Positions 55,758-64,000 of a stretch of 64,000 nucleotides of DNA are shown here, in pieces. Both the position numbers and the translations under genes were made by a program. The notes below the pieces were generated by a model. That model worked only from the letters and a program-made list of their open reading frames with translations, ran no database searches and had not been told where the DNA came from. Source of the DNA: Desmodesmus armatus (taxonomy: Eukaryota; Chlorophyta; Chlorophyceae; Sphaeropleales; Scenedesmaceae); contig VIIQ02000167.1 of assembly GCA_007449985.2 (NCBI GenBank), forward strand, positions 123,046 to 187,045. The letters are read 5' to 3'. Numbering within the stretch: position 1 is the stretch's first letter; each line of letters starts with the position of its first letter.

Positions 55758-56628
55758 GTAAGTTTGGGTTCGGGAACGATACCACACAGGCATGCATCAT
55801 CGGTTAGGTCACCGCATGCAGTAAAAGAAGAGCTGCAGTGTCGACAGCAGTTGCAGGCAGCTGACAGTTGGCTTCAGTTCAAACCCATCACTGCTGACAC
55901 GAGCAGCAGCTACACTGACCGATTCCTGCTGAGTGAGCAGTAATCCTCACAGGAAGGTTATGCTGTGTACAAGGCTATACAACACATGCCTTAGCAGAAT
56001 CAGTGTGATAGTTGACTAATCATGTTGAGTCAACAAGGACTCTGGGTGATATCAGATCATGCCAGATACTGCTGCGTGGCAGTGCTATTATTGGTGGTTA
56101 AGTGCTTGGGAGTTGTATGCGATGAGTTTGGTGCTGCGATGCACAGGATCACTGGCGGGTTCAGGGTTTACCGCCTGCAGTGCCGATTCCTTTGTGCCGC
56201 TGTGGTGCTCTGTGCGTCGCACTCGGCTTTGACAGTGCTTGGTGTAAACTTCTGGCAGTGTTTCCCGAGTACTCGCTCATTTGAATCCCCAATTCAGAGC
56301 GCACAGGTGCAGCAACCAGCCCCAGCAGCGACCTGTGGTCGAACCGGGTGCCTGAACATCACTCATACATTCATACAGCGCATCAACACTTTGCAAAGGA
56401 CTACAAGTGAGTATCTGCTACCCTCAGAGCAGCCAGCTGGCTGCGAAGCATCATTGCTGCAAGCTTTAGGCAGCAAACCACAAGCCGAGTGCCACATTTG
56501 CATTTATACACTTGTAGTAGCTCGCTAGTGCTCAACTGCGGGCGCTAGTGAAAGGGCCACTAGTGGGTGGTGGGCGCTGCCACGTGCCTGGCTACTGGGG
56601 GCATCGCGGCGCGTCTAGTAAGCATTAA
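55758..56628 (+). other. Transporter intron and/or 5' end of the retroelement
   Basis: Between the micro-exon and the gag frame I see no transporter exon. A 5' LTR or leader of the retroelement should lie here, but its ends cannot be found because the right-hand copy is outside the window. No convincing tRNA primer-binding site was recognised. Confidence 0.4.
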
Positions 56629-56655
56629 GGTGTTTTAAATACTATTATAGTTTAC

Positions 56656-59600
56656 TTGCGTGGGTTTTTGGGAAGATCCACTGGTGCATTTCAGAGCTGG
56701 CCCATTTCCAGGCTGGCTTCTTCAGCGGGCAGGCGTGGACAGCAGCCATTTCCAACGTCTGGATCGCTTTCGGAGCAGTTCCAATCGGTGGTTCGGCAAG
56801 CTGTTGGTCAAGTGCGTGCGTCGGAGGAAGCAGGTGGCGCTGACAACCAGGAGAATTTGGGCTCTGGACTGATCAGCTACTCTGGTGACCAGGATCAGCA
56901 CATTGGCGAGCAGCAGGAGGACAGCACTCTTGTTTTCACCAATCCACTCTTCGAGCAGGCCACCAGCAGCATGGCTGGCCTTGGCAGTCTGTCTTTTGGG
57001 GGCAAGCTGGACTCTGGAAGCAGCAGCAGCAACTCCATGATACCAAAGCTATGGTCTGGACAGCCTGGAGTGGATTCCTTCGGAGAATGGCAGCGTGCTG
57101 TCAGGTGGAACCAGGGCCAAAAGCGCAATGCAGCCATGGACAAGAAGCTGGACAAGCACTCTGGTGAAGAGATTGCCGAGATTGCCCAGTTGACTGTCAT
57201 ACGCTCCGATGGTGCCAAAGCAGTGGAGCAGGCTGGGCAGGTCTTGGAGAAACATGTCAGGGCTGCTGACCAGGGCTGGTATCCTCCACAGGAGCTGGAA
57301 GCAGCTGCTCTGGAGTTTGTGCGCAAGCGTCACCCCAACAGTGACTTGGCAGAGCAGACGCTGGCAGCATTGATCAAGGAGAGGTATGAGAAAGTACACA
57401 TTGCTGCGGTTGCCAAGGGCTGGGCACTTGAGGACAGTGTTGGGCTGGAGCAGGCGCTGACAGCAAACTCTTCGCCACTTGTGCAGCAGCAGGACTCAAC
57501 TGGCAACAGCAGCGGCGGTGGCGGCGGCGGCCTGCCTCCTGCAACAACAGATCCTATGCAAACTGCTATGCTGGGCTTCTTCAAAACGCTCAGTGACAGG
57601 CTGGTCAAGAGCACGCAGGACAATAAATACTTCATGACTGTGGGGATGAGGAAGTGGAGCCCTCACAGCTGTGTCATGGAGCTTTTCTGGTGTATGATGG
57701 ACGCAGCATACGGAGTGGCCAGCAGCAAGGAGCAGGCTGAGTTCTACCAGCTGCAGAGTGAGGGTTCCCAGGGCAGCAGGCAGGTGCAGGAGTTTGCGCA
57801 GCGCGTGGCAGTGCTGTATGAGAGTGTCAAGACACTGGGCATTGTGCCAGCAGGTGCAGACATTACCACCTTCTGCAAGGGTCTCAGCAATGCCAGCAGC
57901 AGGCAGTTTGCACGGCAGCGCAAGGAGGAGTACTATGCGTCCAACAGAACTCACATTGCGCTGGAATCACTAGCTGACCAAGTTCAGCAATTCGAGAAGA
58001 ACCTCCACCAGGATGGCGTGCTGGCGCAGCAGGCATTGATTATGGTGGGCAACAGCAGTGTGGGAGCTGGAAGCAGCAAGAACGCCCGGCGCGCAGGTGA
58101 GGAGAGTACACTGGTGCAGACGCTGCTGCGTTCTCGCCGGGAGAATGAGGCTACACAGCAGTACCTCAGCAAGATGGGTGCGCGTGAGAAGCTGCTCATC
58201 ACCAAGGGCTTTGACATGGCGGAGATCGACCCCAAGGACCCCTCTGCTGTCTGCCTGGACTGTCCTGCAACAAAGCGGCCACACCTGAACCAAGACTGCA
58301 AGGGCAGGCGCATGGCGGGGCTGGCTATGGCAGCAGCGCAGGAGGGCAGCACTGCCAACAAAAGCAGCAGCAGCATTGGCAGCAGCGCTGGAACCTTGGA
58401 CGTCAACACGCTGGCAATCATGGTGCAGCAGGCAGTGGCTATGGCAGCAGCAGGAGCAGGCGCAGCACCGGCAGGACTGGGGCAAGGGCTGCCAAGGGCT
58501 TACAACAAGCCAGAAAACAGCAGGGGTAACAGGGGCTATGGTGGCAGCAACGGCAGGCAGCAGCAGTACGCAGGGCCACCTGGCTTGGGTGTTGGGTCAG
58601 CAGTTATGGCGTGTGTCATCTGTGGCTTTGCCAAGGGCCACTCAGATGGTGTCTGCTATATGGACAAGCCAGAGCTGGCTCCAGAGAAGTGGGAGGGCCC
58701 CACGGAGCGTGCACCTGAGCAGGGGATGGTGCACTACATCTCCCGCTGCATGCAGCAGAAGCTGAAGCTCACGGCTGCTGGGCGTTGCAAGAAGCTGAAG
58801 CCACGGCTGGGGCGTTGCAAGGAGCTGCGGCGGATGATGCAGAGCAACAAGCTGCCGCCAGCTATGCAGCAGTTCATTGGACAGCACACACAGCAGCAGC
58901 GGTACATGAACATGGCTTATGGCGCAGCAGCAGAGCCGTATGGGGCTTATGCAGCTTACATGACAGGCATGGGGTCTGCTGGTTCCAGCTACTGGCCCAT
59001 GGGCGGCTCGGCAATGCAGCAGCCAATGGCAGGGCTGCCACCCTCTCACACACCGCTGGCTATCACTGGTGCAGTTGGCGACAGCACCGGTGAACAAGCA
59101 GCAATGATGGTGCTGCCGGATGCAGGCGGGTATGTGAGTGAGGAGCAGCAGCAGGAAACAATGCACTTTGGGCCCTCTTTCTGTTATGTGGGCTTAGCAG
59201 ACTGGCAGCAGGATCTGGCAGGTGGGCTCTTTGACTCAACGGGACATGAGTATGCACTGGTTGGGACACGTGCACAGGCAGGAGCTGGTGCAGTGCAGCA
59301 GGGCAGGGTTGTCAGGCAGCCTGTGCCCAAGGGCTTCCTACCACCCTCAGCTCTTCCTACAGACCTGAATGCCATGCGTTCCATGCCACGCATCACCAAT
59401 GCACTGGTTGCTGGCTTAGGAGAGCTGGACGGCACCAGCAGGGGGCTACTGCACACGCTGCTTGACATTCAGCGGTTTGTGGCGAGCAGGGTATCTGCTT
59501 TTGGAGACCTTCTGGGTGTGCAGGAGGCTGGTGGAGCACATGGTAGCAGCAGTGCACAGCAGGGAGGGCAGCAGGCTCTGCAGGAGGCAACAGCAGCAAA

Positions 59601-61428
59601 GGGTACTGCCAGCATGGTGTCCAGCAGCAGTTCTGGGCGCTGTGGCCCTGTTGCAGCAGCGGCGGCAAGCAGCCGCAGCCTCCTGGAGTCAGTCATGCTG
59701 CAGTATGGCTTCAAGCCAGTGGCAATCGATTACACCCTACGCCAGTCAATGCCTGTGACGCTGGACTTCCTGGTGGGCACGAACAAACAGGAAGGATTGA
59801 CACTAACAACCCCGGATGGGCGTGATGTGCTAGTAGATATGGCGTTCCAGGACTCAGGTGCCACACTGCTGCTGTTCACTGAGGTGGCTTGTGGCGAGTG
59901 GGGTACTTACATCTTCAGAACAAATCAGGTGCCGTCTGTCAAGGGCATTGATGGGCTGCCGTCCAAGAAGATTATCGGCAGGACAGGACCGCTGGTTCTC
60001 ACACTTGCCAAGGGACACCCACTGGCAGCAGTCCTGCCCGTTCCGTGTGCTTGGGTGCTGGAGGGAGACGCGGGTGGCATGTTTAAGGTGTGCTTGGACA
60101 AGAAGACACTGCTGCCGGTGTTTGGGTATGTGGATCCAGCCCTCAACATGCTATGCTTCCGTCCCAAGGCAGCACAGGGCAGGCTTGACATTATACACGG
60201 CATTCCCGTGCGTGGCTATGTCAAGAACGGCAACAGCAGCATCAGCAGTGGCAACATGGCGGCTGCCACCATCTGGGAGGAGGACAGCAGGGACACAGAG
60301 GAGCTTGAGGGCTCAGCAGCAGCAGTGCCGGGCATCAACTACAGGCCGTTTACTGCAGAGGAGAACACTCTAGCCAATGCAGAGCTCGAACGGCTGCTTC
60401 AGGCAGGAGTTATCACAGAACTGGATGCTGGGCCATTTGAAGTGAACGATCGCTGGTACTTGGACCACCTGGGCCTGAATGGTGGTGTGCCACAGCAGGT
60501 GCAAGAGGACTTGGACAGCAGCAGCTCCACTGGGTCAACCGCTATGCCTGAGCTGTGCACAGGCAGTGACAGCGACAGTCTCCCAGAGCTGGTGGATGCT
60601 TACAACCCAGTGACTGCTGACATCGAGTATTTCAGCCCTCATGGCAGTGCAGCAGATGCTTGGCTGCAACAACAAACTGGGGGTGAGCACAACAAGCGCA
60701 GGCGCCGGCGTGGGCGCGGCCGCAAGGGCAGGGGGCGGCAGCAGCAGCAGCAACAGCAGGAGCAGGAGCAGGAGCAGGCAGAAGCACAGCAGCCACTGGA
60801 GGAGCCAGCAGGCAAGCTATGGGGCTTTGACTGGTCCAAGGCTGCTGGTCAGCTGCTGCCGGGCATCAGCTGGATCACGACACACATGGTGCTGCTGCTG
60901 CTAGGCATGTTCCACTTCTTTGTGGACTTGCCGCTGAGGAAGTACCCCTCAAAGATCATGCGTGGATTGGTCAGCATGGCGGGAGCAGCAGTGCGCCCAG
61001 GCAACCCCATGCGCGCAAGGGAGTATAATGTGGCAGAACCTGTGCCCACTAACAACCTTGGCGACACACGGCGCGCACGCAAGCGTCGGCACAACAGAGG
61101 GCCCAGGCCAGGCCCTGGCTTGCAACCGACGGCAGAGCAGGACGCACCGCAAACAAAGGTCTCTGTGGTCGCCACAGTGCGTCACTCTGGCAAGGTCATC
61201 ACTGCGCGCACAGTGCTGATGTGCCTACTCTGTTTCTTCTCAGTGCTGTGCTCCACAGCAGCAATGCAGGTTACCAACAGCATTGGGGCAGCAGCCACTG
61301 GATCAGCACTGCAAGCTGGCTACTTTCCCCTGCCACATGGCGTCCCACCACACCTCAACATGCACTTGCTGCAGCAGGAGCTTGCCAACCTGCATTGCAG
61401 TAGGTTTCGCTGCTACAGCAGAGCATGA
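56656..61428 (+). CDS. Retroelement Gag-protease polyprotein
   Basis: Open frame of about 1590 codons after a stop at 56626-56628. No ATG occurs before 56971, so translation starts there or the upstream part is reached by splicing. The first 500 residues are helical and Gag-like. Two CCHC-like motifs follow: CLDCPATKRPHLNQDC (58252-58299, C-X2-C-X6-H-X4-C) and CVICGFAKGHSDGVC (58612-58656, C-X2-C-X5-H-X4-C), both with a longer spacing than the classical knuckle. A retropepsin-type motif DSGA stands at about 59851 in VDMAFQDSGATLL. After it come a Gln/Arg-rich basic patch (about 60695-60780) and two hydrophobic stretches (about 60877-60930 and 61210-61266). The frame ends 145 bases inside the next one. 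Confidence 0.8.
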   Translation: MRGFLGRSTGAFQSWPISRLASSAGRRGQQPFPTSGSLSEQFQSVVRQAVGQVRASEEAGGADNQENLGSGLISYSGDQDQHIGEQQEDSTLVFTNPLFEQATSSMAGLGSLSFGGKLDSGSSSSNSMIPKLWSGQPGVDSFGEWQRAVRWNQGQKRNAAMDKKLDKHSGEEIAEIAQLTVIRSDGAKAVEQAGQVLEKHVRAADQGWYPPQELEAAALEFVRKRHPNSDLAEQTLAALIKERYEKVHIAAVAKGWALEDSVGLEQALTANSSPLVQQQDSTGNSSGGGGGGLPPATTDPMQTAMLGFFKTLSDRLVKSTQDNKYFMTVGMRKWSPHSCVMELFWCMMDAAYGVASSKEQAEFYQLQSEGSQGSRQVQEFAQRVAVLYESVKTLGIVPAGADITTFCKGLSNASSRQFARQRKEEYYASNRTHIALESLADQVQQFEKNLHQDGVLAQQALIMVGNSSVGAGSSKNARRAGEESTLVQTLLRSRRENEATQQYLSKMGAREKLLITKGFDMAEIDPKDPSAVCLDCPATKRPHLNQDCKGRRMAGLAMAAAQEGSTANKSSSSIGSSAGTLDVNTLAIMVQQAVAMAAAGAGAAPAGLGQGLPRAYNKPENSRGNRGYGGSNGRQQQYAGPPGLGVGSAVMACVICGFAKGHSDGVCYMDKPELAPEKWEGPTERAPEQGMVHYISRCMQQKLKLTAAGRCKKLKPRLGRCKELRRMMQSNKLPPAMQQFIGQHTQQQRYMNMAYGAAAEPYGAYAAYMTGMGSAGSSYWPMGGSAMQQPMAGLPPSHTPLAITGAVGDSTGEQAAMMVLPDAGGYVSEEQQQETMHFGPSFCYVGLADWQQDLAGGLFDSTGHEYALVGTRAQAGAGAVQQGRVVRQPVPKGFLPPSALPTDLNAMRSMPRITNALVAGLGELDGTSRGLLHTLLDIQRFVASRVSAFGDLLGVQEAGGAHGSSSAQQGGQQALQEATAAKGTASMVSSSSSGRCGPVAAAAASSRSLLESVMLQYGFKPVAIDYTLRQSMPVTLDFLVGTNKQEGLTLTTPDGRDVLVDMAFQDSGATLLLFTEVACGEWGTYIFRTNQVPSVKGIDGLPSKKIIGRTGPLVLTLAKGHPLAAVLPVPCAWVLEGDAGGMFKVCLDKKTLLPVFGYVDPALNMLCFRPKAAQGRLDIIHGIPVRGYVKNGNSSISSGNMAAATIWEEDSRDTEELEGSAAAVPGINYRPFTAEENTLANAELERLLQAGVITELDAGPFEVNDRWYLDHLGLNGGVPQQVQEDLDSSSSTGSTAMPELCTGSDSDSLPELVDAYNPVTADIEYFSPHGSAADAWLQQQTGGEHNKRRRRRGRGRKGRGRQQQQQQQEQEQEQAEAQQPLEEPAGKLWGFDWSKAAGQLLPGISWITTHMVLLLLGMFHFFVDLPLRKYPSKIMRGLVSMAGAAVRPGNPMRAREYNVAEPVPTNNLGDTRRARKRRHNRGPRPGPGLQPTAEQDAPQTKVSVVATVRHSGKVITARTVLMCLLCFFSVLCSTAAMQVTNSIGAAATGSALQAGYFPLPHGVPPHLNMHLLQQELANLHCSRFRCYSRA

Positions 61429-63619
61429 TTCTGGCCAAGTGAAGTGGTACCAGGCCGACCCAGCAGCTCTGGACCAACTTGGGCCCGATGGCGCAACAGA
61501 AGATGTGCATGACGCCAGATGGACAGTGCACGATGAGGGCAAATGGATCTTGGGCAACCACCCAGATGCATCGCCTGCACAAATGGACCAGCTGGTGCAG
61601 ATGCTGTTGGAGGAGCGAGGGGCATTTGCTTACAGTCTGCAGGACTTGCCTGGCTACACAGGGGACGTAGCTGACTTCAAACTGATCGATCCCTCCAAAC
61701 GTATGTGGAGCGCACCCAGACGCTACACAGAAGAGGAGGTGAAGTTTGCCAAGGAGAAGGTGCAGGAGATGCTGGATGCGGGCATCGTAAAAGAAATTCC
61801 AACGACCTGTCCGCATGCTTCAGCTATCACGTTGCCTATGAAGCGAGCACCCGACGGTAGCTGGACCGACAAGCGGTTCTGCATCGACCTGCGCAACGTC
61901 AACGGCAACACAGTGGTGGACAGTTACGGCCTGCCACTACCGGAAGAACTGTTTAGGCGAATTAGGGGGCACAAATTCTTGGTCAAGGCGGACTTTAGAG
62001 CGGGCTTTTGGCAGCTCAACCTGAGCGAAGAGGCGCAGCAGCACGTGGCCTTCCACGCACCCGACAGTGGCAAGCGACTGACCTACACGCGGCTGTGTTT
62101 TGGTCACGTGAACGCCACGGCAATTTTCCAGCGGGTTATGGAGAAGGAGCTGGCAGCAGCTGGTTTGTCTCACTGTGCGGCGCCGTTCGTCGATGACGTT
62201 ATCATGTGGTGCGACACCTGGGAGGACATGGTGACCAACTTCAGAACACTTCTACAGCATCTCAAGACAGTGGGCTTGCGCCTGCACCCTGCCAAGACAA
62301 TCGTGGGTGCAGACTGCTTGCCTTACCTGGGTCACCTGGTATCAGCCAAGGAGTGCAAGCCGGAGCCAGCCAAGATTGCAGGCATCAAGGCACTGCAGCC
62401 ACCCACCAGCCTCAAGCGCCTGCAGGCCCACCTTGGCCTGTTAATTACTACAGGTGCTATGTGCCCAACTTTGCCATCATTGCCAGGCCGCTACAAGCTT
62501 ATGGAGAAGGGTGCGCAGTACATCTGGAGTGATGACTGTAACCAGGCGTATGAGGGGCTTCGAACGGCGCTGTGCAAGAAGGGTTTGGGGCTCAGGCAGC
62601 CTGTGGATGGGCGCAGTTTTCATCTGTATGTCGACTGGAGCAACACGGGCATTGCAGCTGTGCTGAATCAGGAGGCGGAGGATGGGACGGAGTACATGGT
62701 GGCCTGTGCCAGCAGGTCCCTCAATGCAGCTGAGCAGAACTATCCCGCCTGGAAAGGCGAGATGATGGCAGCAGTGTGGGGCGTCAAAATGTACAGGCCG
62801 TACTTGCACTCCAGGGAGTTCTATCTCCACAGCGACCACCGGGCGCTGTTATGGCTGCTGACACAGAAGACACCAGTGGGGCAGCAGATGCGTTGGATTC
62901 TGGCACTTCAGGAGTACCGCTTCTCACTGGTGCACAGGGCAGGCAAGTCAAACCCAGCTGATGTGCCTAGCAGGGAAGCCAGTAGCTGTGTGGCAGACAC
63001 CACTGGAGCCAGGTTGGACACGGAGCTGCATGACTGGGTGCCCACTGTGCTTCTGCCAGACTGCAAAACAACGGACCCACTGGTCTACACACATGACAGT
63101 CTGGCACTGGAGCTGGGCATTGGCAGCAAATCAACAGCAGCAGCTGGAGTGGCAGCAATGGCTTATGAGGAAACACCTGGTGACTGCCCAATCCTTCACA
63201 GCCCAGCAGCAGCGCTGGCGGCAGAACCAGCAGACAGCTACAGTCATGAACAGCTGGAGCACGAGGCGTTGTGTTGTCTACTGTGCAGCAACGAGTCTGC
63301 AGTGGACACATTCGCCCCAACCGCCGACTCATTGCTGGGGGGGGAGACAGCAGGACAACTTTTTGCTGACGATGGCTGCTGCGTGGACACACAACACCCA
63401 GCAGTAGCTTGGCGGCAGCATGACCTACAGCAGGCAGCATCGGCGTGGGTCACATTGGCAGGGCTACAACAGCCCCAACCGGACAGCTTCCAGCCAGGAG
63501 TGTACACAGGTGCATTGGACCCCTGGGGCGTAAGGGAGACACAAGGGCTGTGCACGGCTACTGTGGCAGACACGTTCTTCCCGGCAGCGCTGCAGCAGAG
63601 CAGGGCATCGTGCTTATGA
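61283..63619 (+). CDS. Retroelement reverse transcriptase and RNase H
   Basis: Open frame of 778 codons in the frame one step ahead of Gag-protease, overlapping it by 146 bases. Recognisable coding begins about 61405. Reverse transcriptase motifs in order: KRFCIDLRNVN, LVKADFRAGFWQL (catalytic Asp), FGHVNATAIFQRVM, FVDDVIMW (catalytic Asp pair, about 62185) and YLGHLVS. Ty3-type RNase H follows from about 62610: YVDWSNTG, YPAWKGEMMA and SDHRALLWL supply the acidic residues; NPADVPSR closes the domain. The remaining 200 residues up to TGA 63617-63619 have no family signature. Start is unclear; a +1 frameshift from the previous frame is the simplest reading. Confidence 0.88.
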   Translation: MGQQPLDQHCKLATFPCHMASHHTSTCTCCSRSLPTCIAVGFAATAEHDSGQVKWYQADPAALDQLGPDGATEDVHDARWTVHDEGKWILGNHPDASPAQMDQLVQMLLEERGAFAYSLQDLPGYTGDVADFKLIDPSKRMWSAPRRYTEEEVKFAKEKVQEMLDAGIVKEIPTTCPHASAITLPMKRAPDGSWTDKRFCIDLRNVNGNTVVDSYGLPLPEELFRRIRGHKFLVKADFRAGFWQLNLSEEAQQHVAFHAPDSGKRLTYTRLCFGHVNATAIFQRVMEKELAAAGLSHCAAPFVDDVIMWCDTWEDMVTNFRTLLQHLKTVGLRLHPAKTIVGADCLPYLGHLVSAKECKPEPAKIAGIKALQPPTSLKRLQAHLGLLITTGAMCPTLPSLPGRYKLMEKGAQYIWSDDCNQAYEGLRTALCKKGLGLRQPVDGRSFHLYVDWSNTGIAAVLNQEAEDGTEYMVACASRSLNAAEQNYPAWKGEMMAAVWGVKMYRPYLHSREFYLHSDHRALLWLLTQKTPVGQQMRWILALQEYRFSLVHRAGKSNPADVPSREASSCVADTTGARLDTELHDWVPTVLLPDCKTTDPLVYTHDSLALELGIGSKSTAAAGVAAMAYEETPGDCPILHSPAAALAAEPADSYSHEQLEHEALCCLLCSNESAVDTFAPTADSLLGGETAGQLFADDGCCVDTQHPAVAWRQHDLQQAASAWVTLAGLQQPQPDSFQPGVYTGALDPWGVRETQGLCTATVADTFFPAALQQSRASCL

Positions 63620-64000
63620 GCCGTTTGGTGGCATCTGCGCAGGGCTGGAGATGGTGCTCAGGAGTGGCATCACAGTCAAACAGTACCTGTACAGCGACAT
63701 CAACCCCATGGCACAGCGGGCGGCGTTACACAGGATCAGGGTGCTGCAAAGCATGTATCCCAAGCAGCTACCGGAGGATGCTTTGGCTGGCAGTTTCAGC
63801 ATTCTTCCCATGGATGTGAGGCACATCACCACACAGCAGCTCAGCAAGGCTGTCAGCGAGGCACCAGTCAAGCAATGGCTGGTAGTAGGAGGCTGGCCCT
63901 GTCAAGACTTCTCTGCAGCAGGCAAGTCACAGGGGCTTCGGGGTGATCGGGCTCAACTGCTGTTTGACCTGGTCAGGGTAGTGGGAGCGTTTGCAACAGC
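63534..64000 (+). CDS. C5 cytosine DNA methyltransferase domain, cut by window end
   Basis: This frame is open from a TAA at 63531-63533 to the window edge. From 63612 it reads YEPFGGICAGLEMVLRSG (motif I, cofactor binding), then YLYSDINPMAQ (motif II acidic position), DVRHIT (motif III region), and VVGGWPCQDFSAAGKSQGLR (motif IV, catalytic Cys codon 63900-63902) with GDRAQLLFDLVRVV behind it. These are the N-terminal motifs of DNA cytosine-5 methyltransferases; spacing is reminiscent of DNMT3/DRM, while PCQDFSAAGK recalls bacterial/phage enzymes. Motifs VI-X lie to the right. No ATG precedes motif I in frame, so it is probably expressed as a fusion through a +1 shift from the polymerase frame near 63605. 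Confidence 0.8.

Follow-up and report, generated by a model that had tools for sequence, protein, structure and literature searches.

DNA methylation is the usual means by which transposons are silenced, so a transposon that keeps a de novo-type methyltransferase of its own presents a paradox. Within the literature searched, this paradox has so far been described for one charophyte Gypsy element and for elements of dinoflagellates. In the text of PMC5890265 on which we draw, de Mendoza et al. (2018) describe a DNMT3 within the Pol of a Gypsy element with DIRS-like repeats from Klebsormidium nitens (KnitGypsy-Dnmt3), report DNA methyltransferases (DNMTs) in DIRS and LINE elements of Symbiodinium as well, and cite Iyer et al. 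(2011) for earlier DNMTs linked to a reverse transcriptase (RT). Here, we describe a family of such elements in the green alga Desmodesmus armatus, one copy of which lies at the right end of a 64,000-nucleotide stretch (the window; positions 123046-187045 of contig C163, so that window position 64000 coincides with the contig end at 187045). The element is an autonomous, recently active Ty3-type retrotransposon family of this green alga, and its anatomy is hardly in doubt: the integrase is preceded by a complete DNMT3-class C5 methyltransferase, itself behind RNase H, and is followed by a PHD finger.

Compared by its published text, KnitGypsy-Dnmt3 shares with this element its Gypsy domains, a DNMT3 in Pol and a DIRS-like repeat layout; however, its host is a charophyte, whereas the element described here belongs to a chlorophyte and carries a PHD finger behind the integrase. 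In our element the DNMT is placed between RNase H and integrase. The SymbioDIRS-Dnmt3 and SymbioLINE-Dnmt elements likewise hold a DNMT inside retrotransposon coding frames, and in SymbioDIRS the Pol domain is again of the DNMT3 class and the repeats are of the split A-B type, but these are tyrosine-recombinase DIRS and LINE elements, whereas ours has an H2C2 + rve integrase and 4-bp target duplications. Chromoviruses, one of which occurs in the same genome (L026:5412-9737), also have a Ty3 Pol in which the integrase is followed by a module that reads chromatin; that module is a chromodomain instead of a PHD finger, our element adds a methyltransferase and split repeats, and the RTs are only 36-38% identical. 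The passages of PMC12344493 consulted place retroelement DNMT3s in streptophytes and dinoflagellates, describe protist and algal DNMT3s without companion domains, and name the ChloroDNMTs, which are also C5 methyltransferases of green algae. By that description they form a separate lineage, often with PWWP, whereas profile searches and predicted fold rank the domain here with DNMT3.

The terms 'chlorophyt', 'Chlamydomonas', 'green alga' and 'PHD' are absent from the main text of PMC5890265. PMC6338049, in the part consulted, makes the general statement that green algae are among the organisms with retrotransposons encoding DAM and DCM, and describes none, and the passages of PMC12542154 examined contain no such element. 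No description of a chlorophyte DNMT3-PHD Ty3 family was recognised among titles and abstract openings, a search outside which preprints and most subscription journals fall, and the full-text search listings held no family with split repeats and a DDE integrase, or with a PHD finger in long terminal repeat (LTR) elements. Known beforehand was the charophyte Gypsy DNMT3; the chlorophyte family, the PHD finger, the age of the association, the catalytic conservation and the recent activity are added here, although Iyer et al. (2011) may hold an earlier mention of a chlorophyte case. An earlier, sequence-only reading of the window had anticipated a further case beside those of dinoflagellates and charophytes, which agrees with the consulted text of PMC5890265.

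A methyltransferase inside a Ty3-type Pol

The last frame of the window (Table 1) encodes motifs I-IV of a C5 DNA methyltransferase. The profile search that the sequence-only reading had proposed gives a match to PF00145 above the cut-off (E 9.6e-9, 35.5 bits; cut-off 22), and motif I (YEPFGGICAGLE), motif II and GGWPCQ are all present, with the catalytic Cys codon at 63900-63902. Upstream, a Pfam scan finds RT (PF00078, E 1.5e-16) and RNase H (PF17917, E 1.2e-30) in a different reading frame. The contig ends at 64000, and motifs VI-X are therefore invisible in the window and were read from other copies of the genome.

The copy on contig C654 (C654:100418-114362, 13,945 bp) is complete. A single frame of 1937 amino acids (aa) holds RT, RNase H, PF00145, integrase (H2C2 + rve; rve E 3.9e-9) and PHD (E 9.9e-12), in that order; a Tudor match that follows the PHD finger stays below threshold (E 0.0015). 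The Pfam scan of this Pol gave neither a chromodomain behind the integrase nor the companion domains PWWP and ADD, and a second family, read in two tiles, has the same domain set. Between RNase H, which extends to residue 567, and the methyltransferase, with motif I near residue 800, lies a linker of about 220 residues; the methyltransferase domain covers about residues 785-1132. Motifs I-IV, with GGWPC and the catalytic cysteine, are as the sequence-only reading gave them, whereas its placement of the methyltransferase 'directly behind RNase H' fails on account of this linker and of the different frame in the window. Over 8106 aligned bases, only 2 substitutions and 10 indel events separate the window copy from the C654 copy, so the frame break of the window copy is best read as a recent lesion or an assembly error.

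The methyltransferase query is matched over its whole length at 99-100% identity at no fewer than 35 places of the genome, at least 16 of them in 1937-aa open frames; one of these frames, scanned whole by Pfam, holds all the domains, and the others were counted by length. In the tiles that were compared, five further copies match the C654 copy at 99.97-100% identity (the one on C39 in two aligned pieces), and the flanks of near-identical copies differ wherever they were read. Together with the many exact starts of the terminal repeat described below, this points to a recent burst. The claim that a retroelement carries its own C5 methyltransferase is therefore upheld, in a Ty3-type Pol with a complete domain, in many copies and several families, and with chlorophytes as the named sources of homologues.

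Class, conservation and linkage of the domain

By profile and predicted fold, the methyltransferase domain ranks with DNMT3. The closest solved relatives by sequence of the domain (METHYLTRANSFERASE) are DNMT3A and DNMT3B (E 3.1e-8 with the single sequence, E 9e-15 with a profile of 10 relatives). The profile matches DNMT3A in three collinear stretches, which places the motifs in unpermuted order, whereas DRM-type chains (3.6e-10 and weaker) cover only part of the domain, and a permuted enzyme of that type is thereby ruled out. HhaI (8e-5) and DNMT2 (0.025) match more weakly, no DNMT1 chain is among the profile matches listed up to E 0.1, and NCBIfam returned only its generic dcm model, below cut-off. 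The predicted structure of P0121, a homologue 59% identical and not the window protein itself, has a mean pLDDT (predicted local distance difference test) of 91.5. Among the Foldseek matches listed for this model, 50/50 are DNMT3 entries, the best having a TM-score of 0.79 by target length and 0.53 by query length.

The enzyme is likely to be catalytically active. We aligned 126 domains (119 nearly full ones among 180 homologues, the C654 domain, and six from other families or copies of the genome), two of which are gapped at the active site. The other 124 all keep three residues: the catalytic Cys of motif IV, the Glu of motif VI and the second Arg of motif VIII.

Counting other copies, as the sequence-only reading had advised, we found a methyltransferase behind the RT, on the same strand and within 4 kb, at all 63 RT places of the clade (117 rows less 8 fragments and 46 rows at 36-38% identity, the clade being defined by 45% identity or more). 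Methyltransferase places number 76 (97 rows less 21 fragments of places already counted), and all these genome counts are lower bounds. Where the two share a contig, no methyltransferase place comes within 6 kb of any of the 46 distant RT rows; the only one of these rows scanned, at C379:40130, is a chromodomain element without a methyltransferase. The sequence-only reading had named two findings that would count against it, the absence of motifs VI-X and a separate host gene unlinked to other copies; instead, those motifs are present in other copies of the same genome, and the domain shares one open frame with RT and integrase in the C654 copy and recurs behind every clade RT.

Protein searches of metagenomes and transcriptomes returned many homologous polyproteins built in the same way. 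The named sources, which we take to be all chlorophytes of the Sphaeropleales, are Scenedesmus sp. PABB004 (P0043, whole domain), Scenedesmus sp. NREL 46B-D3 and Tetradesmus obliquus (P0172, P0173 and P0175, 20-25% of the query covered), and JGI 'Chrzof1', presumably Chromochloris zofingiensis (P0182, 98% of the query covered). One polyprotein, P0094, is filed under a Minisyncoccia bacterium metagenome-assembled genome; its make-up suggests algal DNA binned with a bacterial genome. Among 197 sequences (196 homologues and the C654 Pol), the 65 that have all three domains, the C654 Pol included, keep the order RT-methyltransferase-integrase without exception. Tree distances correlate at 0.79 for RT and methyltransferase, 0.79 for RT and integrase, and 0.80 for methyltransferase and integrase, against a permutation maximum of 0.165 (999 permutations each). 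The methyltransferase and RT trees have 34 and 37 supported splits, with 22 in common and 5 methyltransferase splits in conflict with RT; the integrase shares 24 splits with RT (4 conflicts) and 24 with the methyltransferase (7 conflicts). Since correlations and shared splits are alike, the methyltransferase has followed the RT with much the same fidelity as the integrase, apart from some exchange. These patterns indicate that the association is old in its lineage and has been kept across many families.

As for possible donors, the domain alignment, run against viral contigs, yielded 7 pattern matches, none of which was confirmed as a relative. A close prokaryotic donor was also rejected: at least 80 bacterial and archaeal loci have best-segment identities of 23-46%, and we read them as ordinary C5 methyltransferases.

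Possible targets of the enzyme

Host CpG is depleted. In all 12 stretches outside the element, on 8 contigs and including window positions 1-55000, the observed/expected ratio is 0.39-0.51 for CpG and 1.16-1.48 for GpC. TpG and CpA are in excess, and GpC is not depleted, in the same stretches (window 1-55000 and flanks on 7 other contigs). A host with this combination looks long methylated at CpG. Outside the element places, methyltransferase matches lie on C146, which holds an exon closest to DNMT1 (E 5e-21), on C11, DNMT1-like by eye, and on C769. No host DNMT3 was seen in the genome scan (C146 and C11 inspected), a weak negative given introns and partial scoring.

The explanation that we favour, and hold to be moderately probable as a whole, is that an active Pol-borne DNMT3 methylates the element's own cDNA or new copy. 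The methyltransferase would be made in the same polyprotein as the RT and would methylate CpG in the double-stranded cDNA or the freshly inserted copy, while the PHD finger in the integrase tail may recognise histone tails at the target site. The genome that new copies would enter is itself CpG-depleted, and the DNMT1-like gene of the host could maintain the marks there. In favour of this explanation stand the single frame shared with the RT, the linkage and domain order kept in the genome and among relatives, the invariant catalytic residues, the low ratio of non-synonymous to synonymous change in the domain, the DNMT3-like predicted fold, the recent activity of the family, the CpG depletion and DNMT1-like exon of the host, and the CpG methylation in yeast by the related SymbioDIRS DNMT3. 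That the cDNA or new copy is the main target of the enzyme is, taken by itself, a proposition to which the sequences give a little short of an even chance. The C4HC3 PHD pattern follows the integrase in 60 of the 65 proteins, and the finger is closest to those of CHD4, KDM5, KMT2 and BAZ2. Several of these fingers read the unmodified H3 tail, and by analogy we would guess that the PHD finger targets the element by H3 tails.

Several results weigh against self-marking by an active enzyme. In the yeast test of PMC5890265, as its consulted text reports it, two SymbioDIRS domains methylated CpG, which speaks for activity; the LINE domains and that of the Klebsormidium Gypsy element, the closest published case, did not, an outcome that its authors call 'inconclusive'. 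No clade RT was found upstream of 13 of the 76 methyltransferase places. The Pro before the catalytic Cys is Glu in 49 of the 124 relatives, which may alter activity there; this Glu goes with Thr in place of Val in the ENV of motif VI (E-T 40, P-V 59), and the variant marks subclades, as it needs 8 changes on the tree compared with at least 31 in 200 shuffles. The ratio of non-synonymous to synonymous substitution (dN/dS) is 0.107 in the domain at dS 0.70, between the families of C167 and C774 of the same genome; comparisons with the family of the window copy (family 1) are at or near saturation. Low values are not special to the domain, since RNase H gives 0.032, the preceding linker 0.100 and the part that follows the domain 0.175; constraint thus extends over this whole section of Pol, and the ratio by itself does not single out the domain. 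Finally, the CpG observed/expected ratio is 0.44 in a chromodomain element without a methyltransferase and 0.47 in family 1; since the former is equally depleted, CpG content gives no sign of self-marking, and we dropped it as a mark of self-methylation for want of specificity.

An unlikely but substantial alternative is that the methyltransferase acts on chromatin, where, brought to the target site by integrase and PHD finger, it would mark other copies and the host DNA beside the insertion, so that rival insertions are held down and the host suffers less. The frequency of the PHD finger and its likeness to the KDM5, CHD4 and BAZ2 fingers are what such targeting would lead one to expect, as are the host DNMT1-like gene and CpG depletion; however, nothing here ties that depletion to the element, and in the order RT-RNase H-methyltransferase-integrase the enzyme adjoins the domains of reverse transcription. 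It is improbable that the domain is retained for a role other than catalysis, for instance in binding nucleic acids or assembling particles: the Glu variant of the PCQ motif and the inactivity of the Klebsormidium domain in yeast would suit such a role, but the three residues of motifs IV, VI and VIII are invariant in every ungapped domain. Less probable still is a defence against DNA viruses of the alga, to the benefit of host and element, which draws on a general suggestion for retroelement methylases in the consulted part of PMC6338049; the sequence carries no sign of a viral target, and no relative was confirmed in viral contigs, a result that bears on origin and not on target. A host gene or assembly chimera lying by chance behind a retroelement, which the broken window copy near a contig end with its differing frames might suggest, we dismiss, as it is contradicted by the methyltransferase behind every clade RT place, the constant order in the 65 complete relatives and the single open frame of the C654 copy.

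Whether, and why, a retroelement marks its own copies is now directly testable in an alga. The family is large and diverse and keeps its catalytic residues and a PHD finger; its near-identical places run to dozens within a genome of 116 Mb, and its host combines CpG depletion with a DNMT1-like gene.

Element ends and further features of the window copy

The repeats of the element are laid out as A1-coding-B1-GC-A2-B2 and not as plain LTRs at both ends. Repeat A measures 588 bp and repeat B 49 bp in family 1, as against 527 bp and 191 bp in a second family (C78); the methyltransferases of the two families are 61% identical. Genome-wide counts rule out the plain LTR reading. Among 67 exact A starts of family 1, 30 have B upstream, each time at a spacing of exactly 2 bases (GC), and 37 do not; B2 follows within 18 bases of 19 of the 23 A2 ends and of none of the 35 A1 ends (exact patterns). 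The four A2 ends without an exact B2 are on C77, C590, C591 and C634, and at C77 other sequence follows. The copy at C77:60722 terminates at A2 without B2, which is the end expected from a plain LTR product (B-GC-A), and its left end lies beyond the contig end.

All three copies in which both the A1 and the B2 end were read (C654, C13 and C78) have 4-bp target duplications (CCAA, CTGT and TTGT); the C647 and C39 copies, without B2, show none. These duplications and the H2C2 + rve integrase rule out membership of the DIRS group, and the tyrosine recombinase PF00589 has no match up to E 0.1 in the Pol or third frame of the C654 copy. A G-rich purine tract immediately precedes B1 in both families, so plus-strand synthesis would start before B, at a point different from the integrated end at A. 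A form carrying the B-GC-A junction may be opened there by the integrase. No TGG stands directly after A1 in the two families, in a check for a tRNA primer site by this pattern alone.

The combination of split repeats with a DDE integrase bears on the origin of DIRS-like termini. Tentatively, and with more doubt than confidence, we suggest that DNMT3 was captured once, in an ancient split-repeat Ty3 lineage common to chlorophytes and charophytes, and was kept as a working part of replication; copies would be self-marked, and a circle-like form with B-GC-A would be opened by a DDE integrase instead of a tyrosine recombinase. If so, the Klebsormidium case would belong to the same lineage and would not be an independent capture. 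No Klebsormidium protein was recognisable among the matches listed in the protein searches, whose limited candidate lists are no evidence of absence.

The chromodomain Ty3 element at L026 has an intact frame of 1442 aa, and several places share that frame length; it is possibly a second recently active family.

Behind Pol, the C654 copy has a third frame of 427 aa (L013:8655-9935) with Ala-Glu-rich and Ser-Arg-rich stretches and a CPIC motif; it has no Pfam match, and neither the tiles of two other families nor any of the 196 homologues matches it. The features of the window copy are collected in Table 1.

Table 1 Features of the element copy at the right end of the window
Feature	Position in window	Strand	Basis
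Repeat A1 (TGACAC...CCACA), 588 bp, left end of the element	55895..56482	+	Same sequence as A1 and A2 in the C654 copy
Gag-protease-like frame, 1599 aa stop to stop	56629..61428	+	Open frame, similar to counterparts in other families
Cys-His motifs; DSGA protease-like motif	58252 and 58612; 59851 (in Gag-like frame)	+	By pattern only
Pol, first part: RT (~61886-62335), RNase H (~62612-62917), then linker	61220..63619	+	PF00078, PF17917
Pol, DNMT3-type C5 methyltransferase motifs I-IV, cut at contig end	63534..63998	+	PF00145

The Gag-protease-like frame is without a Pfam match and resembles the N-terminal parts of homologous polyproteins and the corresponding frame of other families; its DSGA motif, a candidate aspartic protease site by pattern, falls in the best-conserved part. 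Measured stop to stop, the Gag and Pol frames of the window copy overlap by 209 bases in different reading frames.

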